A stretch of DNA of 64,000 bases from Paenibacillus sp. R14(2021). GTDB taxonomy: Bacteria; Bacillota; Bacilli; Paenibacillales; Paenibacillaceae. The first letter of the stretch is position 1; each line of letters starts with the position of its first letter. The notes beneath the pieces were generated by a model. The model searched no databases. It saw only the letters and a list, made by a program, of their open reading frames with translations, and was not told the DNA's origin. Positions 41,315 to 64,000 of the stretch are shown here, piece by piece. The translations under genes and the position numbers were made by a program. The stretch is from NCBI RefSeq assembly GCF_019431355.1, contig NZ_CP080269.1, positions 4,265,001 to 4,329,000 on the forward strand, in the 5' to 3' direction.

Positions 41315-41377
41315 GCTTGGCTGCAGGCAAGAAGGACGGGCCGTAGCGGATGAACGACAATGGGAGAGGTGAACGGC

Positions 41378-41857
41378 ATGGCGAAGAAGAGCGAAGGCAA
41401 ACAGCTCGCGCAGAATAAGAAGGCTTCCCATGACTATTTCATCGAGGATACCTTTGAAGCGGGCATAGTATTGATGGGGAGCGAGATCAAGTCGCTGCGG
41501 ATGGGTAAGGCGAATATCAGTGATGCATTCGCAACGATCCGAAACGGCGAGATTTTTATCCACAACATGCATATCAGCTACTTCGAGCAAGGGAACCGTA
41601 GCAATCCCATGGACCCGACAAGGGCCCGCAAATTGCTGCTTCACAAGTCGCAGATTCATAAGCTGCTTGGTTTGTCCAAGCAAGAGGGCTATGCCATCGT
41701 TCCGCTTAAGATCTACGTGAAGAACGGTTACGCAAAACTGCTGATCGGACTTGGCAAAGGGAAGAAGCAGTACGACAAGCGCGAAACGGCCGCGAAGAAG
41801 GACGCACAACGCGACATTCAGCGCGCGCTGCGCGAGAAGCAGAAGGTTGCCCGCTAA
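41378..41857 (+). CDS. smpB: SsrA-binding protein SmpB
   Basis: RNA-binding partner that brings alanyl-tmRNA to stalled ribosomes. 159 residues with the oligonucleotide-binding barrel ([28 protein letters not shown]) and the basic C-terminal tail ([22 protein letters not shown] in pieces). ATG 41378 has GAGAGGTG six bases upstream; a frame from 41360 would add six residues. The tmRNA gene follows 218 bases later. Confidence 0.96.
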
Positions 41858-42075: not shown

Positions 42076-42439
42076 GGGGGCGTTTATGGATTCGACGGGG
42101 ATAGTTCGAGCATGGGTTGCGGGTAGTGGGGAGCGTCCGCTTCATCAACGCTAAAGCCTATTAAACGGCAAACAACAACAACAACTCGCTTTCGCAGCTT
42201 AATAACCTGTGACGCGGCTTCTACCTTCCATCGCCCATGTGGCAGGATAGGGGCTAACCTTTAGTGGGATACGCTGATTGGTCTCCGCCTGGGGTCGATT
42301 AGAAGAAGATAATCAGGCTGACCCAACGCGTAGTCGGTTACGGGACGACGCTCGGGTGACATCAATACCGTGACTACACCCGTAGAAGCCTGTGTGGCGT
42401 TGTCTTCGGACAGGGGTTCAAATCCCCTCGCCTCCACCA
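42076..42439 (+). ncRNA. ssrA: Transfer-messenger RNA (tmRNA)
   Basis: 364 bases. The 5' end GGGGGCG pairs with CGCCTCC before A-CCA, the conserved start CGTTTATGGATTCGACGGGG is present, and the T arm GGGGTTCAAATCCCC precedes the acceptor. The reading frame at 42167-42199, followed by two TAA stops, encodes the tag GKQQQQLAFAA; the four CAA codons form a small microsatellite. Tag ends in LAFAA rather than the common LAA-type ALAA. Adjacent to smpB. The last 90 bases are duplicated downstream. Confidence 0.96.
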
Positions 42440-42443
42440 TGAA
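42354..42443 (+). repeat. Direct repeat copy A: 3' end of tmRNA
   Basis: 90 bases, from inside the last part of tmRNA to four bases past the CCA, identical to 43016-43105. Probable attachment-site repeat (left end) of a small inserted segment. Confidence 0.92.
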
Positions 42444-42444
42444 G

Positions 42445-42474
42445 AAAGCCGACCGCATGAGGTCGGCTTTTTTG
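42445..42474 (+). terminator. Terminator after tmRNA
   Basis: Stem AAAGCCGACC with GGTCGGCTTT, loop GCATGA, then T run. Confidence 0.92.
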
Positions 42475-42499
42475 TGTGGTTCCGAGATGAATGAGGGAT

Positions 42500-42922
42500 T
42501 TACGATTTGATTTGGCCGCGAATTTCTCCATTTGGATTTTTTATGGTGTGTACATTAGCATATGCGTTGCCGCTTTCGATTTGAAGAACTAGATCACGAA
42601 TCGTCTTTCCGCTTAGAGGGCCGACTAAATCATTTTGAGTCAGGGTTCCCCGAATAACTCCTCGTTTTACGGAAATGCCAAATTTCGAGGGCCCGCATAG
42701 AAAGGCTACTACGGGACCGTTTTCGCCTCTTCGCCCAAGATGAATATGGGCTTGGGTTACTTTCTTTATATTTTGAATAACTAACCGAAAAAATAACTTA
42801 TCACCAGCACTGTTAAGCCGAAAAACAGCATTTCCTGTAGAATTTGTCCTTACAGGAGGTACTTCGTTTCTTCCTTTTAAGCTTGCCTTAAACGTTTTGA
42901 TATCCCTCACCCCTCTTTTCAT
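42500..42922 (-). CDS. CHRD-domain protein
   Basis: 140 residues that are almost entirely one CHRD domain, a beta-sandwich unit found in chordin and in many bacterial proteins: F-ASLKGRNEVPPVRTNSTGNA at the N-terminus, AHIHLGRRGENGPVVAFL near 78, and ANVHTIKNPNGEIRGQI at the end. No signal peptide is seen, although bacterial CHRD proteins are often exported. Biochemical function unknown. It is the only gene between the two copies of the tmRNA 3' end and is more AT-rich than the core genes, which fits recent acquisition. The start is uncertain because ATG 42922 lacks a good ribosome site. Confidence 0.8.
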   Translation of the reverse strand: MKRGVRDIKTFKASLKGRNEVPPVRTNSTGNAVFRLNSAGDKLFFRLVIQNIKKVTQAHIHLGRRGENGPVVAFLCGPSKFGISVKRGVIRGTLTQNDLVGPLSGKTIRDLVLQIESGNAYANVHTIKNPNGEIRGQIKS

Positions 42923-43015
42923 TAATAAGGTATATTATTCAGTGAGGAACGGTGAGGTTTGTACATCTGTCTTAACGCTTGGAGATTCTTCATGTGAATG
43001 AAGATGGAGTTTAAA

Positions 43016-43105
43016 GGGTGACATCAATACCGTGACTACACCCGTAGAAGCCTGTGTGGCGTTGTCTTCGGACAGGGGTTCAAATCCCCTCGCCTCCACC
43101 ATGAA
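43016..43105 (+). repeat. Direct repeat copy B: 3' end of tmRNA
   Basis: Second, perfect 90-bp copy of the tmRNA 3' terminal region including T arm, acceptor and CCA, with no 5' half in front of it. It can be read as the right-hand attachment site of the CHRD segment. Confidence 0.92.
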
Positions 43106-43133
43106 AGCCCCGTCCTCATGAGGACGGGGCTTT
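43103..43133 (+). terminator. Terminator after tmRNA copy B
   Basis: Stem GAAAGCCCCGTCC with GGACGGGGCTTTC, loop TCATGA; same architecture but different stem sequence from the terminator at 42445. Confidence 0.85.
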
Positions 43134-43185
43134 CTTTAAACCATAAGTTTGCCGTCGCGGCAAACATTTGCTTTAATTGTTTTTT

Positions 43186-43375
43186 ACGTTTATGGATTCG
43201 ATAGTAGCTGGGAGCGTCCGCTTCATCAACGCCAAAGCCTATTAAACGGCAAACATCAACAAAACTACGCTTTAGTAGCTTAATAACCTGTTAGCGTGCT
43301 CCTACCTAATATCGCCCATGTGACTAGACTAGGGGCTAACAGATAGTGGGATACACGGTTCGGTCTCCGCCTGTC
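43186..43375 (+). pseudogene. Decayed 5' half of a second tmRNA gene
   Basis: Starts with CGTTTATGGATTCGA like tmRNA, then lacks about 25 bases present at the start of the intact gene, then matches it closely (GAGCGTCCGCTTCATCAACG, AAAGCCTATTAAACGGC). A tag frame at 43248-43280 encodes GKHQQNYALVA followed by two TAA stops. Similarity continues through GGGGCTAAC and GTGGGATAC to TCTCCGCCTG and then stops; the 3' third, including the acceptor, is absent, and the 5' acceptor strand (GGGGG) is lost. It cannot fold into a working tmRNA. Confidence 0.88.
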
Positions 43376-43667: not shown

Positions 43668-43888
43668 CGGAAGTCTAGAACGGTTATTCAAGCCCATGGT
43701 TGCTGTTTTACGTAATTTAAAAGCAAGAATTTTACACAGTAAATAATAATGTCGTAATTTACAATATTACATGAAATTTTTAACGCAACACGCGATCTAC
43801 TTTCGAGTTTAGTTAATGTTTCATAGATAAAGTTGAGAAAAGGATGATTTGTAGAAAGCAATCATTTATTCAAAATAAGAGGAGAGAC

Positions 43889-46800
43889 ATGATGAGAAGG
43901 TTTATTAGAAACAAAAGATTGTCGTCGATGATGCTGGCACTCGCGATGGTACTGAATGTATCAAGCATTGGCGCTTTGACGGCCAATGCAGATGCAGATC
44001 CGACGCTGGGCGAAGCAAACGTCCTGAAGAGCGAGAATATTTCCTCGGGCGTCAGCTTTACCTCGGAGGAATACAATAACTACTATAAACCGAACAATCG
44101 AGTCGTCGTTAACCGTCTGAATATTAATCCAGCTGACTCGAATACGAGGATCATCACCGCCAAGGCGTACGATACCATCAGCGCCGTGGAAACGGTCGGC
44201 GATCAGGCAAACCGGGAAATTTTGAAAGGCAATCAAGTCATTGCCGGAATCGACGGCGATTTTTACGATATCGATCCTGCATCCGGAAATCCACTTGGGT
44301 TAATGATGAAGGACGGCGAGCTGATTATCAGCCAGGCACCAGACGAAAATGCAACTAATTATCGCACCAGCTTTTATATGGATAACGCGAATAAGCCGGG
44401 AATTAACCAAGTTCATGCTGAAGGTAAAATCTCGGCTGCGGGGGCCGTCTACGACGTAAACCTGCTTAACCGAAACCAAAAGATTACGAACGGTTTGGTC
44501 ATCCACACGAGCAAAATTACGAAAACACGAAAAATGACGCATAACTACGCTGCCGACAGGGACAAATCCGCTTTCGCGTTGATCCGCGTGGGCAACAAAT
44601 TCGACGGCGTTCATCCGGGGCAAACTTACACGGGTACCGTCGTTAATGTAACGTCCACGGAAGGCTTCGATATTCCCGACGACTCCGTCGTTCTGGAAGG
44701 CGTAGGCACATCGAAATCGATCGTCGAGGCGTTGCAGACTAACGCCGAGGTTAGCTTTAAATACGATTTGTACGCAGGCAAAGATGCGAACAACATCGAT
44801 ATTATGAACAACGATATCGTGACGTCGATCACCTTTAACACTTGGCTTGTACGTGACGGCATAGCGCTGTCGACCGGAGATACGGCTCCTAACGCCCATA
44901 CGGCATTGGGCATGAAGGCCGACGGAAGCTTAATCGCGGTTACCGTGGACAAACCAAGTTCTAGTTATACCGGCAGCATTGGAACAAGTCTTGACGATCT
45001 TGCGAAATATTTGCAAGACGCGGGAGCCATCAACGCGCTTAATCTGGACGGCGGCGGTTCAACGGAGATGATCGCACGCCCGGCCGGCAGCGATCGTCCG
45101 GTAACCGTAAGCCATCCTAGCGATGTCAATGGATCCAGACTCGTTTCCAGCTCACTGCTATTCGTTAGCACGGCAACGAAAGGGGCAACGGTCGGCAACG
45201 TAGTCGTCGATAAGAACATTACGCTTTATAACGGATCGAAATACGACTTCTCCTATCGGTTGGCGGACGAATACGGCAATCCGATCTCCAGCGGCAACGG
45301 TCCCGCAACGTGGGCATCGACGGTCGGAAGCATCAACCAGAGCGGCCATTTTATTGCGGATTCCGGAGCCGGAGCGGGAGAAGTATCGGCAACGATAGAC
45401 GGCGTGACGGGAAGCGCGAAGGTAACGGTCGTGGATACCGTGGCTACCCTTGCTTTAGCGAGCACCAACGTGGTTATGAACAATAACGCGAAAAAGCAGT
45501 TCGGACTTGTCGCTACCGATGCAACCGGGGGGCAGGTTTACATCGACCCGTCCGTGGCAACGTGGAGTCTTTCCGGCAGTATCGGTACCGTGAACGAGAG
45601 CGGTTTGGTCACTTCCAACGATAGTAACGGCACGGCAACGCTTACGGTAACGGTTGCAGGTAAGACGTTAACAACACAAGTCACGGTCGGTATCAAAGAG
45701 CAGGTCATCGACAATTTCGAGACGTACCCGATCGAAGGTTACCATCTAAGCGGAATCGGTTTTGGTAGTGTTTCTCAATATGCGGGAAGCGCAGGAACAA
45801 GCACGTACTTGAGCATCTCGACGGCGGTTAAGCATTCGGGAAGCAATAGCTTTAAATTCGATTATGACCTTAGCAAGTGGACAAACAAAAATTCGAACGG
45901 AACGCTGAACTGGATCCCGCACTGGTATAAGGGCGCGAAATGGCCCGATTCTCTTGCGGATCAAATGCTTTCCACGTATAAGACCGATGTTTATCCGAAA
46001 AAATTCGGAATTTGGGTATACGGGGACGGCAAGGCTCCTTGGTTAAGGGCGATATTTAGAGATTCATCCGGCGGCGCGGATAAAACGCTCGACCTGACAA
46101 CGGAAACGGACGACATCAACTGGGTTGGTTGGAAATATCTAGAGGTCCCTGTCCCTGACGGCTGGAAGCTGCCGATTACGCTTAACTATGTGTACATGGT
46201 TGAGACGACGAAATCGAAGCCGGCCTATTCCGGTACGGTCTATTTCGATGATATGAAATATATTTATACGGACGATGTAACGGATACTAGCGGTCCGGAG
46301 TTTACGGACACAAGTCCTTCGTCGGATGGCTTGTTCAGCGATACCCTTGATTTCTCGACAACGATTACCGATAGTCTCTCCGGGGTAGACGTGAACAAAA
46401 TAACGGTAAAAATCAATGACGTGGATTATAAGGATTACACGTACGATAAAGTCACGGGTCGCCTCAGCTTCAAGCTGGAAAATCTAACCCAAGGGGATTA
46501 CAGCGTATTCATAGACGCCTACGACAAAGCGTTAACCCCCAACGAATCCGTTCCCTATATCGACAAAACGTACCATGTGGATTTGACTCCGGACGAGGAA
46601 GCTCCGACGATGACGGACGTAACGCCTACGAAGGACGTCAAAGTTAAAATCCCTACGCCGAGGATCACGTTCAAGCTATTGGACAGCAAATCGCAAGTGG
46701 ATCCGGCGAGCATTTCCGTTCGGATGAATAATATCGAGATGCCTGTTTATTACGACGCCGACACGGGTTGGGGATATGCCGAACCGACAAGCGACTTGGC

Positions 46801-49234
46801 GAATGGCGAGTATAGCCTAAGAATCAATGCTCGGGATAAAGCCGGGAACGCCATGCCGACTTATAAGGATCAATTGTCTCTGGCCTCGATCTCGCAACCG
46901 CAAGATGGAGATAACTTCAAAATCTCGCTTATTCCGGATACGCAAGGCAACGCGTTTACCGATAAATTGTTCGCTAAGGTTGCAGCGGATGATTCTTCGT
47001 TAGTCCTGCACATGGGCGACATCGTGGATGACGGATCGCAGAAGCAGTATGACGACGCTTCGAATTTCGTCAACAAGTATTTCGGGGACCCTGGGTCTAA
47101 GCCGTTCTTCGTATTGGCGGGTAATCATGAAGCGTTCCAGAACACCTTGGATATCTACTATAAGAAATTCGGTTCTCCGACGATGCATTTCGACTATGGG
47201 GATACGCTGATCATCATGTTGAACTCGGCATACATCCAAAGTCTTACCTTATCGGATTCTACCCAATTCCATTGGTTGGAAGAAGTCTTGAAGAAGAATA
47301 CGAAGAAAAACATTATCGTTCTTGACCATGTGATTACGCGCGACGCATTCGGCACCAAGCATGAAATGGATCCGAAGGACGCCGCGAGATACGAGTCTAT
47401 TCTGAGCGATTATAAGCTCGAGCATCCGGACACGGATATCTACAGCATTTTCGGACATTTGCATTCTCTTCAAAATTGGGAAGTCGGCGGAGTCAAATAC
47501 ATCATTACGGGTAACGGTGCCGACAAGACGTACCTCCCGCATAGCGATGGAGATTTGCTCGGCACCGGCAAGATGACGGTTTCGGGCGGCAAGATGAAGT
47601 ACACCTTCGACCCTCTCTTGACGAAGGTTTATATTCATAACGACGCGATTATCTCGGGCAAAATGAACACTGTAATCGGATCCCAAGTCCAAATGGATTT
47701 GTTCGGGGACTTCAGAGAGTATCCTGCTAATTACTTGACTCAAATCAATAACCGCAAATTGGTTGGGATTGACTGGAAATCCAGCAATGAAGACGTAGCT
47801 TCGGTGGATGAAAATGGAGTTGTAACTTCAAAGTCTTCCGGTACGGCAATCATTACGTCAACATCTGGAGGAAAGAGCAACTCTATTTCGGTCGAGACGG
47901 TTAAGCCGGCGGACGTCAAGCCGGTCAAGCTCGATTTGTCCGTTCCTGCGGAACCTGAAGTCGGGGGTACGTTCATCCCGACGATTAAAGCGACCAACGC
48001 TTACGGCGCGGTTTACGCCCTTGACGCGAAGGACGTTACCTACAGCTTCAAGAACGGAAAGGCACACATGCAAGATGATGGAGTTATCATCGCAGATGCC
48101 GAAGGCGACGAAGAAATTACGGTTACGTTTAGCGGTTTGAAGGCGACGGCCATCACGAAAATCGTTGCTAAGCCGACTACGCCTTCCGGTCCGATCGTGA
48201 TCGCGCCTCCGACTAAACCGGACGTCGATCTTACCAAGGACAGCGTCGTGAAATCCGACGTCTTCGCGGAACTCGCGAAAGACAAGAACGCGACGATGAC
48301 GTTCGTGGGCAACGGCTACAAATGGAAAGTCAATGGCTCGGACATCACGAATCCTAACGCTGACGTAGACTTGGGCGTTAACATCACAAATCAAGCTCCC
48401 GCAGGGAAAATTTCGACCCCAGTTCAAGTCAATAAAAAGAAGGTCGTTCTGGGCTTTTCTCTCAACCAAAACGGAGCTCTTCCGGGGAAGATGACGCTTG
48501 AAATCCCGACGAGCAAAGAACAAGCGGGCAAAAAGCTGTTCTTCTACGCGGTAAATTCCGCCGATCAAGCTCCTGTACTCGTATCCGAGCTTACCGTGTA
48601 CGAAAACGGAAACGTAGCGGTTCCTTTCGCTTCCTCGACGTCGGCCGAATACATGCTAACGACGCAAAAGATCTTGGATTTCAAAGACGCCGACGTTCAC
48701 TGGGCGAAAGCGGACATCTATTATCTGGTGGGTAAGGACATTATCGGCGGCGTTAACGACAGCCAGTTCTTGCCGAATAACGCGATCACGCGCGGCGAAT
48801 TCGTCAAGTTGATCGCCAGAGCCGCCGGAGCGGACGTGTCCGCCTTCACGAACAGCTCGTTCGCCGACGTCAAGCAAGGCGACTGGTACTCGCCTTACGT
48901 AGAATGGGCAAAGAAGAATAACATTGTGCTTGGGGTTAAGCCGAATGCCTTTGCTCCTAACGAGAAAATTTCAAGGGAACAAATGGCGGTTATCCTCGTA
49001 AGACTGTCCGACTTGCTCGGATACACCTTGGAGGACAGTGCGCCGCCGGTTCATTTCAAGGACGAAGCCAACATTTCCGCCTACGCGCGCGAAGCTGTGA
49101 AAAAGGCGCAGCAAGCCGAGATTATAAGCGGCATGCCGGGTAATCAGTTCTCGCCAGCAAAGAGCGCAACTAGAGGAGAAGCGGCCAAGATGCTAGCGAC
49201 TTTGCTCAAAGCCATGGAAAAGAAAAATCAATAA
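43889..49234 (+). CDS. SLH-anchored phosphodiester glycosidase / metallophosphoesterase multidomain protein
   Basis: Exported protein of 1781 residues from ATG 43889 (AAGAGGAG upstream). Order: signal peptide (1-36); phosphodiester glycosidase (NAGPA/DUF2233) domain ~60-425 with VIAGIDGDFYD near 118 and LNLDGGGSTEMI near 385; Ig-like/BIG2 repeats ~425-600; a jelly-roll, carbohydrate-binding-like module ~606-800; two Ig-like repeats to ~1000; a calcineurin-type metallophosphoesterase ~1010-1200 (PDTQG, HMGDIVDDG, LAGNHEAF, DHVITRD, FGHLHS); another BIG2 domain; and three SLH repeats (~1594-1781) for attachment to wall polymer. The pairing suggests removal of a sugar-1-phosphodiester and then the phosphate from a surface polymer; that is inference. 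Terminator at 49265. Confidence 0.9.
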   Translation: MMRRFIRNKRLSSMMLALAMVLNVSSIGALTANADADPTLGEANVLKSENISSGVSFTSEEYNNYYKPNNRVVVNRLNINPADSNTRIITAKAYDTISAVETVGDQANREILKGNQVIAGIDGDFYDIDPASGNPLGLMMKDGELIISQAPDENATNYRTSFYMDNANKPGINQVHAEGKISAAGAVYDVNLLNRNQKITNGLVIHTSKITKTRKMTHNYAADRDKSAFALIRVGNKFDGVHPGQTYTGTVVNVTSTEGFDIPDDSVVLEGVGTSKSIVEALQTNAEVSFKYDLYAGKDANNIDIMNNDIVTSITFNTWLVRDGIALSTGDTAPNAHTALGMKADGSLIAVTVDKPSSSYTGSIGTSLDDLAKYLQDAGAINALNLDGGGSTEMIARPAGSDRPVTVSHPSDVNGSRLVSSSLLFVSTATKGATVGNVVVDKNITLYNGSKYDFSYRLADEYGNPISSGNGPATWASTVGSINQSGHFIADSGAGAGEVSATIDGVTGSAKVTVVDTVATLALASTNVVMNNNAKKQFGLVATDATGGQVYIDPSVATWSLSGSIGTVNESGLVTSNDSNGTATLTVTVAGKTLTTQVTVGIKEQVIDNFETYPIEGYHLSGIGFGSVSQYAGSAGTSTYLSISTAVKHSGSNSFKFDYDLSKWTNKNSNGTLNWIPHWYKGAKWPDSLADQMLSTYKTDVYPKKFGIWVYGDGKAPWLRAIFRDSSGGADKTLDLTTETDDINWVGWKYLEVPVPDGWKLPITLNYVYMVETTKSKPAYSGTVYFDDMKYIYTDDVTDTSGPEFTDTSPSSDGLFSDTLDFSTTITDSLSGVDVNKITVKINDVDYKDYTYDKVTGRLSFKLENLTQGDYSVFIDAYDKALTPNESVPYIDKTYHVDLTPDEEAPTMTDVTPTKDVKVKIPTPRITFKLLDSKSQVDPASISVRMNNIEMPVYYDADTGWGYAEPTSDLANGEYSLRINARDKAGNAMPTYKDQLSLASISQPQDGDNFKISLIPDTQGNAFTDKLFAKVAADDSSLVLHMGDIVDDGSQKQYDDASNFVNKYFGDPGSKPFFVLAGNHEAFQNTLDIYYKKFGSPTMHFDYGDTLIIMLNSAYIQSLTLSDSTQFHWLEEVLKKNTKKNIIVLDHVITRDAFGTKHEMDPKDAARYESILSDYKLEHPDTDIYSIFGHLHSLQNWEVGGVKYIITGNGADKTYLPHSDGDLLGTGKMTVSGGKMKYTFDPLLTKVYIHNDAIISGKMNTVIGSQVQMDLFGDFREYPANYLTQINNRKLVGIDWKSSNEDVASVDENGVVTSKSSGTAIITSTSGGKSNSISVETVKPADVKPVKLDLSVPAEPEVGGTFIPTIKATNAYGAVYALDAKDVTYSFKNGKAHMQDDGVIIADAEGDEEITVTFSGLKATAITKIVAKPTTPSGPIVIAPPTKPDVDLTKDSVVKSDVFAELAKDKNATMTFVGNGYKWKVNGSDITNPNADVDLGVNITNQAPAGKISTPVQVNKKKVVLGFSLNQNGALPGKMTLEIPTSKEQAGKKLFFYAVNSADQAPVLVSELTVYENGNVAVPFASSTSAEYMLTTQKILDFKDADVHWAKADIYYLVGKDIIGGVNDSQFLPNNAITRGEFVKLIARAAGADVSAFTNSSFADVKQGDWYSPYVEWAKKNNIVLGVKPNAFAPNEKISREQMAVILVRLSDLLGYTLEDSAPPVHFKDEANISAYAREAVKKAQQAEIISGMPGNQFSPAKSATRGEAAKMLATLLKAMEKKNQ

Positions 49235-54130: not shown

Positions 54131-54158
54131 AAAACCCGACCGCATGAGGTCGGGTTTT
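54131..54158 (+). terminator. Terminator after the SEC-C gene
   Basis: Stem AAACCCGACC with GGTCGGGTTT, loop GCATGA, then T run; the loop and half of the stem match the tmRNA terminator at 42445. Confidence 0.9.
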
Positions 54159-57329: not shown

Positions 57330-57342
57330 TCGCCTCCACTAT
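57330..57342 (+). repeat. Short match to the tmRNA 3' terminus
   Basis: TCGCCTCCACTAT matches the tmRNA end in all but one of 13 bases, again a few bases before a terminator. Possibly a decayed attachment site marking the right edge of the accessory region; chance cannot be excluded. Confidence 0.3.
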
Positions 57343-57346
57343 CACG

Positions 57347-57375
57347 AACCACATCCGCATAAGGATGTGGTTTTT
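57347..57375 (+). terminator. Terminator after the PpiC gene
   Basis: Stem AACCACATCC with GGATGTGGTT, loop GCATAA, then T run; nearly the same stem as at 52767. Confidence 0.9.
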
Positions 57376-57441: not shown

Positions 57442-59244
57442 GTGGTGGAGGTGCGCGGCATTCGCTCTATAAAGTCTGCCAGAACGGTTCAGAGGAAGAT
57501 AAGCTTCTTGCAAATGCTGCGTAATCAATTTGGTTTTTCTTCGCTCCGCAAACGAATTATGGTGTTTCTGACCGTTGGCTTAGTGGGATGCGCCATCTTA
57601 ATGGCATCGGTCTCCTACAATGCGATCTACACGATGCAGCACGATAAAATCAAGACCTCGATGGCGTTTGATCTGTACCAGCAAACGACAAAGCTCAATC
57701 AAATGTACAATAACCTGCTTCAGGTTACACAGCAGATGACGCCGGAGGGCACGGTGGGGAACCTGATGGAGTCCTATATCTCTGCCAAGGACGCCTATAG
57801 TCAGCGGCTTCTCTCTCGCGATATTGCTTACAATATTGGATTAATTACGTTTTCGAACCCGGCTATGGAGCTGGTGATGTATTATCATACCGCAAGCGCA
57901 CAGGCTTCTTATTCGAATTTACCGCTGCGCGGAGACTTCACGCTGCCATCTTTGCCGGATGTCGCCGGTATGGGGGAGCTGAAATACCAGTCCCCGCATA
58001 AATCGTTATGCCGATTCAGCGATGATCAGGTGGTGTCGGTGACGCGGGAAGTTAAATTTTCGGACGGAACGCAGCTGGTCGTTTATGTCGAAGCTAAGTC
58101 CGACATTTCCTCAGATATGAATTCGCTTACAGAGAGCTTAAACATGCCCTATGCGCTTGTTTTCACCGATACGGCGGGCTTGGTGACCTATAGCAGCAAT
58201 TCTTCGGCTTTCGCTGCCGGCCAACGACTCGAGCTAAGCGGGCAATCGGGCGTGACGGACGGTTATGTTTGGAACCGAATGACAGGCGATTACGGCTACG
58301 GCATCACGCTGCTTCTTCCCGTCTCCTACTACAATCACGAGCTCTATACATGGAAGAACCATATGTATTGGATTCTCGCCATTGCCCTCCTGATGATGTT
58401 TATGCTCACGCTGCTCTTGAGGCGGCTCATTAACGGGCCATTTCTATTGATTGAGCGGGAAATGAGGACGTTTGGCAAGGGATACATGGGCACCAGCCAA
58501 TATCGTACGGGGATCGATGAGTTTGACCGGATATTCGATCAGTTCAATATTATGAAACGGCAAATTCAGCAGCTGATTTTGGATGTGGAGCAGAAGGAAA
58601 AGCGCCGGCATCAGCTGGAGATCGAGAAGCTTGCCTACCAGATCAACCCGCATTTTCTGATGAATACACTCAATTCGGTACGCTGGCTGGCGGTTATGCA
58701 TAAGCAGGCGGAGATTGAGAAATTCGTATCGTCATTAATTATTTTACTTAACTATAATTTGGGCAAATCAGAGGAAACGTCTACCTTCAGGTCGGAAATA
58801 GAGGTCATGCGAACGTATCTGGAGCTGCAGCAGATGCGGCATGATTTTGAGGTGCAGCTGGACGTGAAGGAAGGGGCCTATCTGGATAGCCCGGTCGCGA
58901 GGTTCATTCTGCAGCCCATCGTGGAGAATGCCGTCTGTCACGGTCTTGACGATAACGGCAAGCTGGAAATACGCATTTCTTCGGATGAAACGGCGCAGAT
59001 GGTGCGCATCATCATCCGCGACGATGGCAAAGGGCTGAGTCACGAGACGCTGGCCTTGCTGCAGCGCGACACGCCGGACCAGCAGCAGACGGGATGGGGA
59101 ATCGGGCTTCGTTATGTTCGATCCATGCTGGAATCATTTTATGGCCATAAAGCCCGTATGGGTATAGAGAGCACGCCGAATCAAGGCACAACGGTTACGT
59201 TAGACCTTCCTTTTCTTCAGCATCGAAAGGAGAGAACGATTTGA
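57442..59244 (+). CDS. Sensor histidine kinase, YesM type
   Basis: About 600 residues. One transmembrane helix near residue 40 (IMVFLTVGLVGCAILM), a ~250-residue extracellular sensor region, a second helix near 315 (YWILAIALLMMFMLTLLL), a HAMP-like linker, a His_kinase domain with the phospho-accepting His in YQINPHFLMNTLNSVRW near 397, and a HATPase with PIVENAVCHGL near 493 and DDGKGLS. Typical of Paenibacillus kinases that sense sugars through a binding protein. The start is uncertain: GTG 57442 lacks a clear site and TTG 57508 (AGAGGA upstream) is possible. Overlaps the regulator by 4 bases. Confidence 0.9.
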   Translation: MVEVRGIRSIKSARTVQRKISFLQMLRNQFGFSSLRKRIMVFLTVGLVGCAILMASVSYNAIYTMQHDKIKTSMAFDLYQQTTKLNQMYNNLLQVTQQMTPEGTVGNLMESYISAKDAYSQRLLSRDIAYNIGLITFSNPAMELVMYYHTASAQASYSNLPLRGDFTLPSLPDVAGMGELKYQSPHKSLCRFSDDQVVSVTREVKFSDGTQLVVYVEAKSDISSDMNSLTESLNMPYALVFTDTAGLVTYSSNSSAFAAGQRLELSGQSGVTDGYVWNRMTGDYGYGITLLLPVSYYNHELYTWKNHMYWILAIALLMMFMLTLLLRRLINGPFLLIEREMRTFGKGYMGTSQYRTGIDEFDRIFDQFNIMKRQIQQLILDVEQKEKRRHQLEIEKLAYQINPHFLMNTLNSVRWLAVMHKQAEIEKFVSSLIILLNYNLGKSEETSTFRSEIEVMRTYLELQQMRHDFEVQLDVKEGAYLDSPVARFILQPIVENAVCHGLDDNGKLEIRISSDETAQMVRIIIRDDGKGLSHETLALLQRDTPDQQQTGWGIGLRYVRSMLESFYGHKARMGIESTPNQGTTVTLDLPFLQHRKERTI

Positions 59245-60317
59245 TTCGCGTATTAATTGTTGACGATGACAAGCTTGCGCGCAAAGGCTTGATCTCGATT
59301 ATGCCCTGGTCGAGCCACGATATGATTGTTGTTGGAGAAGCGGCGAACGGCGCGAAGGCGCTCGAGTTTATGGAAAGGCATGAGGTGGATCTCATGTTCG
59401 TGGATCTCTCGATGCCCGTCATGTCGGGAATGGAGCTGCTTCAAGTCACGAGACAACGTTTTCCGAGGCTGCGCTCCGTTATCTTATCGTTTCACGAAGA
59501 GTTTGAGAATGTGCAGACGGCTTATCGCATGGGGGTTCTCGATTATATATCCAAGGTGCGGCTGGAATCCGAGGATGACGAGCAAATATTGAAACGAATC
59601 CAGCAGCAGATGACTGGCGAAATGCCGCATCGTAGTGCAGCCAAGACTCCTGCGTCAGCGCCGGCTTCTCCTGCCCCCGAGCCGAATATCCGCTCACAGG
59701 AGGAAGAAGAGTGGTTAAGGCTGGAGCAAGAGTGGCGCGCTCACTACTGGCTGTATAATGAATCGGTCTTCCAGCGCTTATGCAAACAAACCGTAGAAGC
59801 TAAGGTTTCCTTTCGCCGTCTGGAAGGGCTGTTTATGCGCGTGCTTTCGCAAATGGAGACGGTGATCGCCCTGGATGCCGAGCTCCGGTCAGATGCAGAT
59901 AACGTTCGATCGGCGGTTGAATGGCTGCGCGATTACAGGAAACGCGTGTATACGCAGGTTGCGGCATCCACCGATTTCACCAATACGACGACAAGTATTC
60001 TAAAGGCGGTATTGTTCATTCGCGAGCAGGCTTCGAATACGCTGCATGCCGAGGAAGTCGCTGATCATGTGCACATGAGCCGAAGCTATTTTAGCCAATG
60101 CTTTAAGAAGCTGACAGGTTCGACGTTTAATGATTACTTAAGGCAAGAGCGGATGAGAGCCGCCGAGCGTCTGCTTTGCGAGACCAATCAGTCGATCGCA
60201 TGGGTGGCTCATGCTGTCGGGTACAATGATTCCAAGTATTTCTCTCAGCTCTTCTATGAACAGACCCGTCTCTTGCCCTCCGAATTCCGTGCCCAATTCC
60301 ATAAGGGGGATGAATGA
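59241..60317 (+). CDS. AraC-type response regulator, YesN type
   Basis: 358 residues from TTG 59241 (AAAGGAG upstream). Receiver domain 1-120 with the acidic pocket VDDDK, phospho-acceptor Asp in LMFVDLSMPVMSG near 55, and Lys in DYISK. An Ala/Pro-rich linker (~130-150), a middle region without known motif, and two AraC helix-turn-helices at ~255-355 (HAEEVADHVHMSRSYFSQCFKK, in part, and IAWVAHAVGYNDSKYFSQLF). Paired with the kinase; the likely target is the transporter operon that starts 128 bases downstream. Confidence 0.92.
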   Translation: MIRVLIVDDDKLARKGLISIMPWSSHDMIVVGEAANGAKALEFMERHEVDLMFVDLSMPVMSGMELLQVTRQRFPRLRSVILSFHEEFENVQTAYRMGVLDYISKVRLESEDDEQILKRIQQQMTGEMPHRSAAKTPASAPASPAPEPNIRSQEEEEWLRLEQEWRAHYWLYNESVFQRLCKQTVEAKVSFRRLEGLFMRVLSQMETVIALDAELRSDADNVRSAVEWLRDYRKRVYTQVAASTDFTNTTTSILKAVLFIREQASNTLHAEEVADHVHMSRSYFSQCFKKLTGSTFNDYLRQERMRAAERLLCETNQSIAWVAHAVGYNDSKYFSQLFYEQTRLLPSEFRAQFHKGDE

Positions 60318-60444
60318 TTGCAGCCGATCGAACAAATATCTACCTTCACCCCATATTCACCGCAAAACACGGCACATCCGTCTGACTTTTTTTGTCCGCT
60401 TCCCATGTACAATGAGAAGGCAGGAAACCAAGGGGAGGGTTAAG

Positions 60445-62163
60445 ATGAAAAAGAATGTCGCAACGCTGCTTTCCGTCGTATTGCTTGGTCTAAGTTTGAC
60501 AGCATGTTCTTCTAACAATAATTCATCGAATAATGTGAAAGCGTCTTCAAATTCAGGATCGAACGCCACAACCCCGGCACTATCGGGAGATGATCTGGCT
60601 TTCTCCAAATTTCCGAAGCCTGTCGATGTTCACATCGGCATGGTGGTGGATCCGACGGACAAAACGCTGCCGGAAGGCGACAGCGTAGGCAACAACCCGT
60701 ACACGCGTTATCTCAAGGACAAGTACAACATCAACGTAATTGTCGATTGGACCGCGGCTACCGGTAACGATTTCAAGCAGAAGGTCAGCTTGACGATCGC
60801 ATCGGGCAAGCTGCCTGACGGTATGGTCGTCGACGACCGTTCCTTCATGACCAAAGCGGCCAGCTCGGGCTTGTTGTACGATATCACCGATATTTTCAAT
60901 CAATATCAATCCTCGCAGGTGAAGGACATTATGGCGAGCACCGACGGCCGTGCGTTGGAGAATGCCAGCTACAAAGGTAAAATGGTCGCGCTTCCAAACA
61001 TTACGGTGGATACCGACGGCGTTCACGTCCTATGGATTCGCAAGGATTGGCTGGATAAGTTGAAGCTGCCTGTACCGAAGACGGTGTCGGATATCGAGAA
61101 GACGGCGAGAGCGTTTATTGATAACAAGCTTGGCGGGGACAAAACGATCGGTATCGCCGGTCCTTCCAAAAACTCGTTCCCTTATTCGACCTTCCTCGTT
61201 TCCTCCAACAATATGGGAGGCTTTGATCCGATTTTTGGCGCAGAGGATGCATACCCGGGCTACTGGCTCGACAATGGCGACGGATCGGTATCGTACGGAA
61301 CGACGTCGGACAATACGAAGAAAACGTTGGCTTTGCTCGCTGACTGGTACAAGAAAGGACTTATTGACCCAGAGGTGGGCACCCGTGACAACGTAGGGGA
61401 TCCGATCAATGCGAATCAAACGGGGATTTTCTTCGGTCCATGGTGGAATGGCGGCTACGGCAACGGGGACTCCTTCAAGAACGATCCGACTGCGAACTGG
61501 CAGGCCTATCCGGTCTATTCCGACGATAACAAGTGGAATTCGCATATGAAGACAACTGGCAGCACCTACACCGTTATTAGCAAGAACGCTAAGCCGGATG
61601 TCGTCAAGGCCATCATGATTATGAATAACGCGCTTGTGCGCGATGAAGCGACCTTTGATTTGTCGGTTAATGTGGGCTGGTATCCGCTTCGCAACGTTAT
61701 GGCCGCGGCCAACGAGACGGAATACGAGTATACGGAGCTTCTGAAAGTCTTGAAGGGCGAGACCAAGCCTGAGGATTACAATAAGCCGAACAGCTTATAC
61801 AAGCTGATGTATGCAGATGCGAAAAAGGTGAAGGACGTCGTTAAACCTCCATACGACGAATTGAATGTCGGCAACTTCAGCACGGCTAACTTCGGCGACT
61901 TCCAGCGCCTATATTCACTCCTGATTGGCGATCGTCCGTTCACGACGATTCCAATTGATAAGAAGGTCTTCAGCGTCACCTACAACCAGACCGCGACCAT
62001 GGAGACGAAATGGGCGAACCTGAAGAAGATGGAGGATGAGACCGTTATGAAAATCATCCTGGGTCAAGCGCCGATCGACTCCTTCGACCAATTCGTGAAG
62101 GACTGGAAATCGCAAGGCGGAGATGAGATCACGGCGGAAGTCGCAGAACTCTTGAAGAAGTAA
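60445..62163 (+). CDS. Extracellular solute-binding lipoprotein of a sugar ABC importer
   Basis: 572 residues. Signal peptide with lipobox LTAC (Cys20), an Asn/Ser-rich linker, then a large family 1-type binding protein (FPKPVDVHIGMVVDPTD, KMVALPNITVDTDGVHVLWIRKDWL in part, NQTGIFFGPWWNGG). Size and motifs fit the LipO/YtcQ class that in Paenibacillus imports oligosaccharides. ATG 60445 has GGGGAGGG upstream; the longer frame from 60211 runs inside the regulator gene. First gene of the transporter operon. Confidence 0.9.
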   Translation: MKKNVATLLSVVLLGLSLTACSSNNNSSNNVKASSNSGSNATTPALSGDDLAFSKFPKPVDVHIGMVVDPTDKTLPEGDSVGNNPYTRYLKDKYNINVIVDWTAATGNDFKQKVSLTIASGKLPDGMVVDDRSFMTKAASSGLLYDITDIFNQYQSSQVKDIMASTDGRALENASYKGKMVALPNITVDTDGVHVLWIRKDWLDKLKLPVPKTVSDIEKTARAFIDNKLGGDKTIGIAGPSKNSFPYSTFLVSSNNMGGFDPIFGAEDAYPGYWLDNGDGSVSYGTTSDNTKKTLALLADWYKKGLIDPEVGTRDNVGDPINANQTGIFFGPWWNGGYGNGDSFKNDPTANWQAYPVYSDDNKWNSHMKTTGSTYTVISKNAKPDVVKAIMIMNNALVRDEATFDLSVNVGWYPLRNVMAAANETEYEYTELLKVLKGETKPEDYNKPNSLYKLMYADAKKVKDVVKPPYDELNVGNFSTANFGDFQRLYSLLIGDRPFTTIPIDKKVFSVTYNQTATMETKWANLKKMEDETVMKIILGQAPIDSFDQFVKDWKSQGGDEITAEVAELLKK

Positions 62164-62171
62164 TCAGGCAG

Positions 62172-62216
62172 AAGCTTGCGGAAGGCACTGGCAGTTTCGG
62201 TGCTTTTCGCAAGCTT
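62172..62216 (+). other. Intercistronic hairpin
   Basis: A 17-pair stem (AAGCTTGCG with CGCAAGCTT plus an inner GAAGGCAC/GTGCTTTT) with an 11-base loop, directly after the binding-protein gene and without a T run. Likely stabilises the upstream mRNA so that binding protein exceeds permease. Confidence 0.7.
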
Positions 62217-62250
62217 TACTATCCTGCTAGGGAGAGGGAGGTTAGCCGTA

Positions 62251-63141
62251 ATGAGAAAATTGGGCCATCAGAAGCATTATTATTTGATGCTGCTGCCGGG
62301 TATGGTCTGGCTTGTGATGTTCAGTATTGTGCCTATGTTCGGAATTCTGATGGCATTTCAGAATTATAATCCAGGAACGGGACTGTTCAAGTCCGAGTGG
62401 GTCGGGCTGGAAAACTTCAAGTATATGTTTCAGCTGAATGACAGCAAGACGGTTATCATCAATACCTTTATCATCGCTGTCGGCAAAATCGTGTTTAATT
62501 TGATCGTGCCGCTCATATTTGCCATTCTGCTCAACGAGCTTCGCAGCTTGCGCTACAAGAAGCTGGTACAGACCGTTGTATACCTGCCGCACTTTCTGTC
62601 GTGGGTTATTATGTCGACGATTGTAATCGGAATTTTCGGCTATTATGGCGTTGTGAATACGGTTATTGGTATGTTTGGCTTCGATCCCAAACTATTTATG
62701 GCGGATGCCGGTATATTCCGGCAATTGATTATCGGCAGCGACGTGTGGAAGGAGTTCGGCTATAACGCAATTATCTATCTTGCGGCGCTGACAGGCATCA
62801 ATCTTAATCTGTATGAGGCGGCCGCCATTGACGGCGCTAACCGCTGGCAGCTGATCAGGCACGTCACGATGCCTGCGCTGACAACTACGGTTGTTTTGCT
62901 TGGCGTCTTGAGTCTAGGCAACGTGCTGAACGCCGGATTCGACCAAGTGTATAACCTGTATAACCCGCTTGTGTATTCAACCGGAGATATTTTGGATACA
63001 TGGGTATACCGGCTGGGCTTGCAAAATCTTCAGTTCTCGCTGGCGACGGCTGCTGGGTTGTTCAAGTCGGTCATTAGCTTTGTGCTGATTTTCATATCCT
63101 ATCGTCTGGCGTATCGCTATGCCGATTACACGGTATTCTGA
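62251..63141 (+). CDS. Sugar ABC transporter permease, LplB-like
   Basis: 296 residues, six hydrophobic helices, and the binding-protein-dependent permease EAA loop YEAAAIDGANRWQLIRHVTMP near 190, which contacts the ATPase. ATG 62251 follows GGAGGT; a frame from 62176 runs through the hairpin and is not used. No ATPase gene is adjacent in the window; the MsmX homologue at 5629 could supply it. Confidence 0.92.
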   Translation: MRKLGHQKHYYLMLLPGMVWLVMFSIVPMFGILMAFQNYNPGTGLFKSEWVGLENFKYMFQLNDSKTVIINTFIIAVGKIVFNLIVPLIFAILLNELRSLRYKKLVQTVVYLPHFLSWVIMSTIVIGIFGYYGVVNTVIGMFGFDPKLFMADAGIFRQLIIGSDVWKEFGYNAIIYLAALTGINLNLYEAAAIDGANRWQLIRHVTMPALTTTVVLLGVLSLGNVLNAGFDQVYNLYNPLVYSTGDILDTWVYRLGLQNLQFSLATAAGLFKSVISFVLIFISYRLAYRYADYTVF

Positions 63142-63155
63142 AGGAGGACGCTGCA

Positions 63156-64000
63156 TTGGTCAGAAATACAACGTTAGGCTCACGGACGTTTGAAATTGCC
63201 AATATCATCGTCCTCGGCCTCCTGCTTATTAGCTGTATCTACCCGCTGTGGTACACGTTCTGTGTATCGATCTCCGACAAGTCCGCCGCTAATGCAGGCT
63301 TGGTTACCATTTATCCCATCGGCTTCTCCCTGACGCCGTATAAGGAAATTATCAACGACAGCTTATTCTTTAACGCGTTCTGGATTTCCATCCAGCGCAC
63401 CGTGCTCGGCACATCATTCTCCTTGCTGATGACGGTATTAATGGCTTACCCGCTGGCAAGGCCTAAGAAAGATTTCAAAATGCGCAATACGTTCATGTGG
63501 ATCCTTGTCTTCTGTATGCTGTTTAACGGGGGATTGATCCCGTGGTACCTCACCATTCAAAACTATCATCTGATCAATACGATCTGGGCGTTAGTGCTCG
63601 GCGGAGGCGTACCGGTATTCGACGTGATCCTGATCATGAACTTCTTCCGCAATCTGCCGAAGGAGCTGAATGAGGCGGCAGTAGTCGACGGTGCCGGTCC
63701 TTGGTCGATCTTGTTCCGGGTGTATATCCCATGTTCCATCCCGGTGCTTGCTGCAGTGGCGTTGTTCCTTAGCGTATATCACTGGAACGAGTTCTTTAAC
63801 GGATTGGTGCTGATGAACACAGCGGATAAATATCCGCTCCAAACCTATATCCAGCAGCTTGTCGTCAACATTCCGGTCGGAACCAGTCTGACTCCCGAAC
63901 AATATAAGAAGCTGTCGGAGCTGTCTAACCGGACACTGAATTCGGCCAAGGTGTTTATCGCAATGGTGCCGATGCTGATGGTATACCCTTTTCTGCAAAG
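63156..64000 (+). CDS. Sugar ABC transporter permease, YtcP-like (truncated by window end)
   Basis: About 281 codons read open to the last base. TTG 63156 is preceded by AAGGAGGA at seven bases. Hydrophobic helices (IANIIVLGLLLISCIYPLWY and others) and the EAA loop LNEAAVVDGAGPWSILFRVYIP near 170 mark it as the second CUT1 permease. The missing end should be short, since family members have ~295 residues. Confidence 0.92.
   Translation, partial: MVRNTTLGSRTFEIANIIVLGLLLISCIYPLWYTFCVSISDKSAANAGLVTIYPIGFSLTPYKEIINDSLFFNAFWISIQRTVLGTSFSLLMTVLMAYPLARPKKDFKMRNTFMWILVFCMLFNGGLIPWYLTIQNYHLINTIWALVLGGGVPVFDVILIMNFFRNLPKELNEAAVVDGAGPWSILFRVYIPCSIPVLAAVALFLSVYHWNEFFNGLVLMNTADKYPLQTYIQQLVVNIPVGTSLTPEQYKKLSELSNRTLNSAKVFIAMVPMLMVYPFLQ

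Follow-up and report, generated by a model that had tools for sequence, protein, structure and literature searches.

A one-gene CHRD unit bounded by copies of the tmRNA 3' end belongs to a widespread class of ssrA-bounded units

Integrons consist of one-gene cassettes that carry one site each, enter at a proximal site and form arrays. Islands that integrate at tmRNA genes leave tmRNA fragments behind, as PMC4131195 mentions in general terms. In Dehalococcoides, the published description (PMC3146451) reports 31 ssrA islands arranged in tandem with 20-bp ssrA repeats, 15 of the 31 without an integration module, and a serine integrase, DsiB, whose 3' end always overlaps attL. The same source names cis-mobilizable elements (CIMEs), which have att-like repeats on both sides and no recombinase or transfer genes. 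Acinetobacter dif modules are small, often toxin-antitoxin units that are shuffled by a recombinase encoded elsewhere (PMC13141974), and the ends of Islander islands are marked by a regenerated target gene and a displaced fragment (PMC4383910). Among open-licence papers searched by title and the start of the abstract, we found none on such units in the order to which the present genome belongs.

We analysed a 64-kb stretch of DNA, here called the window (G000:C1:4265001-4329000), from a one-contig genome of 5.98 Mb whose gene content suggests a member of the Paenibacillales; its features are collected in Table 1. The exact 90-bp duplication of the tmRNA 3' end described in the initial annotation is present: the two identical 90-mers lie on the same strand, 662 bp from start to start and 572 bp apart, with no third occurrence in the window, and chance is excluded as the source of an exact repeat of this length. 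It is not made up of the last 90 bases of ssrA, as had been stated. Since the gene ends at 42439, the repeat comprises its last 86 nt, starting at nt 279, plus 4 nt past its end. The insert of about 570 bases is as first described, with CHRD as the sole gene between the copies, on the opposite strand, and no integrase; it is AT-richer than the window (41.6% against 51.5% GC). PADLOC made no call for CHRD.

Table 1. Features of the window, and recombinase genes at ssrA in relatives (locus coordinates)
Feature	Position	Strand	Basis
smpB (named after its family), usual ssrA neighbour	41360..41857	+	ORF; product aligns 81-98% with smpB of relatives
ssrA (tmRNA), intact, entry site	42076..42439	+	ARAGORN; RF00023 (E 7e-79)
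Left copy of 90-bp block (ssrA 3' end)	42354..42443	+	exact repeat
Terminator-like hairpin after ssrA, left unit edge	42442..42473	+	inverted repeat then T run
CHRD-domain gene, 140 aa, the unit's only gene	42500..42922	-	PF07452 (E 1.2e-29)
Right block copy, taken as former ssrA 3' end	43016..43105	+	repeat; collinearity with relatives
Terminator-like hairpin past right copy	43103..43134	+	inverted repeat
Degenerate second ssrA, minus part of 5' end and 3' third	43190..43373	+	similarity; RF00023; collinearity
SEC-C gene in 14.9-kb segment	52946..54094	+	PF02810
Proposed outer edge	57330..57375	+	13-nt piece of ssrA 3' terminus and near copy of G005 ssrA terminator
Chromosome directly after ssrA (245 bp on) in G005	57484..64000	+	82% identity
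Recombinase gene at ssrA	L168 1148-2719	-	
Recombinase gene at ssrA	L190 941-2488	-	
Recombinase gene at ssrA	L191 1219-2778	-	

The locus shares with the Dehalococcoides islands (PMC3146451) an insertion at the 3' end of ssrA that is flanked by direct repeats of that end. Relatives add tandem units after ssrA that are bounded by 3'-end copies, units without an integrase and, in 3 of 11 genomes, a large serine recombinase lying antisense at the left edge with its 3' end overlapping attL/ssrA; the likeness of the latter to DsiB is one of arrangement. Neither the window nor the surroundings of ssrA in this genome hold such a recombinase, and Dehalococcoides too has units that lack it. The window itself has one clear unit downstream of ssrA and then about 14 kb up to the proposed outer edge. 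The repeats are 20 bp in Dehalococcoides and 82-90 bp here, and the insertion is in the T-loop there (nt 333/334) but upstream of the T-loop here, where a 90-bp repeat from nt 279 is found instead of a 20-bp one. One-gene or one-operon units are frequent here, and the cargo of the two systems is not alike. As in CIMEs, att-like repeats flank the CHRD gene with no recombination or transfer genes between them, but at 0.66 kb the unit is far smaller than the CIMEs of that source, and we only infer that it would be mobilised in trans. The dif modules differ from it in being plasmid-borne with Xer sites, in place of a chromosomal ssrA 3' end, and Islander islands in containing, and being catalysed by, tyrosine integrases. 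With integrons it shares, in the features compared, one-gene units with a single site, a proximal entry site and arrays; the site here is instead the ssrA 3' end, units stand on either strand with terminator-like hairpins of their own, and no tyrosine integrase lies next to the array in this genome or in 10 relatives.

The initial annotation overlooked the remnant of a second tmRNA gene at about 43190-43373. Positions 43204-43373 are 84-85% identical to parts of the intact ssrA and match RF00023 at E 2.9e-8, a score under the gathering threshold. Uninterrupted sites occur in relatives: a genome from another genus of the family (G031) has two full tandem ssrA genes separated by a short spacer, and one from the same genus (G011) has two uninterrupted tandem genes, with the contig end falling within the second. 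After removal of 662 bp, the insert plus one block, our locus aligns with both genomes across ssrA, spacer and second ssrA. This collinearity leads us to read the right copy as the original 3' end of the first ssrA, and it argues for insertion over tandem duplication of a longer segment. The empty site that the initial annotation proposed to seek is thus found in G011, G031 and a further relative, G005, and the uninterrupted sites support its view of the ssrA 3' end as an attachment site. Judged by sequence comparison, the CHRD unit is real and inserted. The order of 3' part, spacer and 5' part at 43016-43373 had also suggested a circularly permuted tmRNA, which we rejected because the permuted Rfam model gave only E 0.1 and 0.32 and G011 and G031 have ordinary tandem genes. 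Read by eye, the degenerate second ssrA keeps an open tag-like frame. Near-full ssrA copies lie 10.5 kb apart in G008 (L038; the loci of G031 and G011 are L037 and L009).

We surveyed the order with R1, a sequence model built from 27 sequences and covering the final 82 nt of ssrA. R1 matches 386 of 392 genomes of the order; among the matches listed, at least two copies occur in 35 of 54 genomes, and the maximum among them is 10. Outside the order, at least two copies occur in 6 of 78 genomes of the phylum, a contrast that is overstated because R1 is tuned to this order. Neighbouring copies at 54 loci are separated by 98 gaps, of which 38 are no longer than 1 kb, 59 no longer than 2 kb and 73 no longer than 3 kb, and 13 measure 841-875 bp; as the loci were picked for having copies, 59 of 98 is no population rate. 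The gap count leaves out L107 557-583 (E 0.036), L185 5233-5270 (E 0.00059), L112 (part of L047), matches in L034, L035, L091, L092 and the window's tRNA genes, and most single-match loci. The search for other cassettes bounded by the same block, which the initial annotation had recommended, thus returned many in relatives, and its presentation of the CHRD element as a stand-alone case does not survive the comparison: the CHRD unit is one member of a widespread class of ssrA-bounded units.

The start points of the copies are scattered over ssrA from nt 122 to nt 348. Starts at nt 262-284 account for 24 of the 53 copies listed, including the window copy; L112, the main ssrA genes and the second ssrA genes of G031 and the window are not in this count. 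Pfam assigns the cargo to Fic/Doc, a MazE-like partner, a zeta-like kinase, PIN_12, Abi_2, HNH, NACHT, YdjM, SEC-C, RCC1 and glyoxalase-like families, with no match for 5 of 20 cargo proteins. PADLOC identifies the Abi protein as AbiD and places two Fic proteins with Fic-type models. Among phage and plasmid records, 29 phages and 5 plasmids match 28-60% of a 114-nt query, and none is named from this order.

The same units recur in different company. The zeta-like unit was clustered in 9 genomes and further read in G064 and G078, and the Doc-type gene was clustered in 8. Among 51 pairs of homologous units, which are not independent (mostly zeta or Doc, the shared left side often being ssrA itself), both neighbours differ in 33, only the left is shared in 10, only the right in 5 and both in 3. 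One unit is common to G342 and G396 from end to end (1-864 of 864, 98.6% identity) while the neighbours differ on both sides. Identity of the unit exceeds that of the smpB side by at least 6 points in 7 of 11 pairs: G199/G226 (94.3 vs 78.8), G281/G309 (95.4 vs 78.5), G330/G303 (92.2 vs 80.9, HNH unit), G214/G223 (87.6 vs 77.8), G148/G099 (96.6 vs 87.6), G148/G067 (95.3 vs 86.9) and G067/G099 (94.4 vs 87.8). It is not higher in the remaining 4: G342/G396 (98.6 vs 98.0), G067/G374 (94.0 vs 94.5), G062/G002 (76.5 vs 77.4) and G342/G303 (76.9 vs 79.6). G303 carries the zeta unit followed by the HNH unit, and G330 carries them in reverse order. Between ssrA and the same downstream chromosome, the five genomes G067, G099, G374, G096 and G376 hold four different contents. 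The switch between unit and neighbour sequence falls inside the block in two comparisons, too few to fix a crossover.

A tyrosine recombinase, the agent anticipated in the initial annotation, is not indicated near ssrA. None of the 15 PF00589 matches in this genome lies between ssrA and 4361456, 10 relatives have none closer to ssrA than 200 kb, and a home-made tyrosine recombinase profile run over the collected loci reached a best E of 0.017. Some relatives carry a large serine recombinase against ssrA instead. Of 11 genomes from the order, three (G342, G135 and G083) encode, antisense and directly after ssrA, a full-length protein of 515-523 aa with Resolvase, Recombinase and zinc-ribbon domains, its last codons lying inside the ssrA 3' end, and across 172 blocks in 74 loci an abutting frame of at least 500 aa occurs in these three only. 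The right-hand copies in G135, and in G083 if these are its ends, start at ssrA nt 262-274; the copy that follows the recombinase in G342 starts at nt 91. Against its ssrA, G272 retains only a 71-aa C-terminal piece of a serine recombinase, and other loci hold more distant or broken ones, including G253 and G345, where they follow soon after ssrA. PF00239 matches this genome in three places, none of them close to ssrA, and one of these serine recombinases, compared with the kind found at ssrA, is 24% identical; the window holds neither such a recombinase nor a remnant of one. In L168, L190 and L191 the C-terminal codons of the recombinase gene correspond to the antisense strand of the tmRNA 3' end; its stop codon may thus be set by integration, a point also made for DsiB. 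Elsewhere in this genome, three consecutive tyrosine recombinase matches (G000:C1:5764250-5767041) may be a recombinase trio.

Relative to G005, whose smpB is 88% identical in nucleotides to that of this genome, about 14.9 kb is extra at ssrA, and the CHRD unit is the part nearest to ssrA. In G005, ssrA leads after 245 bp into the chromosome that matches the window from 57484. A deletion in G005 instead of a gain here is the other formal option to accumulation of the 14.9 kb. Shuffled sequence scores as well as the 13-nt match at 57330 alone, and the proposed outer edge therefore rests on the terminator and collinearity. A gene with PF02810, as in the window's SEC-C gene, fills a block-bounded unit in G058 (L041); no ssrA block adjoins the SEC-C gene of the window. 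An ssrA-like match at G000 4361351 (71%; R1 E 0.0019) and a hairpin-like match at 54132 were too weak for use.

Within the genus, 5 of 22 genomes carry a relative of the CHRD gene (E 1e-20 or better), as do 56 of 392 in the order (E 1e-35 or better), and a scan of named genomes returned two, in Caldalkalibacillus and Brevibacillus. Those most similar to the window gene belong to other genera (G380, G277 and G223). In G380 the CHRD gene is 85% identical in nucleotides while smpB is 75% identical, and 15 exact ssrA nucleotides stand at the collinear place beside CHRD; in G047, CHRD stands at the distal end of a 6.1-kb segment, with a decayed copy of the ssrA 3' end about 100 bp away. The initial annotation suggested a recent event. 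The identical copies, its main basis, speak for this, but in G019, of the same genus, CHRD also directly follows ssrA, without a right copy, and its nucleotide identity (82%, against 80% for smpB) is at about background divergence. CHRD may therefore have stood next to ssrA in the genus for longer than the identical copies suggest. A hairpin similar to that at 42442..42473 also follows ssrA in G019. Across 60 CHRD genomes, CHRD lies within about 200 kb of ssrA on one contig in 24, farther off on the ssrA contig in 16 and on another contig in 20. No ssrA block was found at 48 other CHRD loci, where the single match is the ssrA of G143 itself (L129), nor at the CHRD locus L098; the CHRD genomes covered are the 60 less G295, G306, G326, G361 and G411. 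We therefore rejected the idea that CHRD is usually a block-bounded cassette. Wherever the two genes lie no more than about 200 kb apart on one contig (24 of 24 genomes), CHRD stands downstream of and antisense to ssrA, a bias that, at distances up to 200 kb, is fully covered by none of the explanations offered below.

We think it somewhat probable, a little above an even chance, that the CHRD element belongs, as a unit with no integrase of its own, to a serine-integrase ssrA-island system and was moved by a recombinase acting in trans. The 662-bp unit would consist of a hairpin, the CHRD gene and one 90-bp ssrA 3' copy, and would have inserted at the ssrA 3' end and rebuilt the gene, whose former 3' end became the right copy. 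A serine recombinase from larger ssrA islands of the order would join ssrA 3' copies in trans, with an integron-like logic in which ssrA serves for entry and the copies of its 3' end act as cassette sites. This reading is favoured by the collinearity with G031 and G011 once 662 bp are removed, the lack of the 14.9 kb in G005, the closeness of CHRD to genes of other genera (G380, above the smpB level), CHRD joined to ssrA 3' sequence in two further loci (G047 and G380), the small gaps, the pairs with both neighbours different, the seven unit pairs above the smpB side, and the abutting serine recombinases, two of which (G135 and G083) have copies in the start class of the window copy. Against it stand the recombinase-free surroundings of this genome's own ssrA, the 48 CHRD loci that are not block-bounded, the four unit pairs not above background, the nt 91 start in G342 and the shorter Dehalococcoides repeats; given starts scattered over nt 122-348, one fixed crossover is no sufficient explanation. 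The initial annotation had left a choice between movement in trans and the remnant of a larger island. We favour the former, which we infer, and keep the latter as a rival that is unlikely yet to be reckoned with: a larger recombinase-bearing island at ssrA, internally deleted until CHRD, its distal gene, and the right copy were all that was left, so that the unit itself was never mobile. The position of CHRD in G047, as last gene of a segment closed by a decayed ssrA copy, the C-terminal stub in G272 and broken serine recombinases in other arrays would all fit such a history, but the window holds no recombinase remnant, one-gene or one-operon units are frequent in the sample (of loci chosen for copies), and the same unit recurs end to end among different neighbours.

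Near identity over 80-100 bp is in principle enough for homologous exchange. The ssrA 3' copies could accordingly be mere homology for RecA, with no dedicated recombinase, as the wide variation in start points and the presence of an abutting recombinase in only 3 of 11 genomes would allow. We nevertheless judge this improbable: nearly half of the listed copies start in one narrow stretch, the first acquisition of a copy by a gene is left unexplained, and the two switches inside the block are too few to decide. That CHRD has long been resident beside ssrA, with the right copy arising from a local accident, seems very improbable to us, even though CHRD is downstream and antisense wherever both genes are close and G019 has the ssrA-CHRD arrangement with no right copy. 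Empty sites in relatives (G011 and G031) already disfavour long residence, CHRD is absent from G005 and from most genomes of the genus, its closest relatives are in other genera, and in 36 genomes it lies farther off or on another contig.

The trans-acting serine recombinase we favour for the CHRD unit invites a broader proposition, to which we give somewhat less than an even chance: that the order has an integron-like cassette system on Gram-positive chromosomes, with tmRNA as entry site, 3'-end copies of it as cassette sites, ssrA-specific large serine recombinases acting in trans, and cargo, frequently of the toxin-antitoxin or defence-like sort, that passes between genera one gene or one operon at a time. 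If so, a ribosome-rescue gene would double as the docking site of a platform for small-gene exchange, driven by a serine and not a tyrosine recombinase. Because the unit boundary is the end of a known RNA gene, units can be found in any genome, and the system would readily yield a catalogue of exchanged small genes and allow the origin and movement of one-gene units to be tested. Two adjacent serine-recombinase-like stretches in ssrA arrays (L173 10880-13359 and L043 12519-13693, oriented) recall the DsiA/DsiB pair. Large surface-type proteins are encoded downstream of ssrA in the window (43844-49234, with SLH domains) and also between ssrA and CHRD in G047 (L039 3217-7893).
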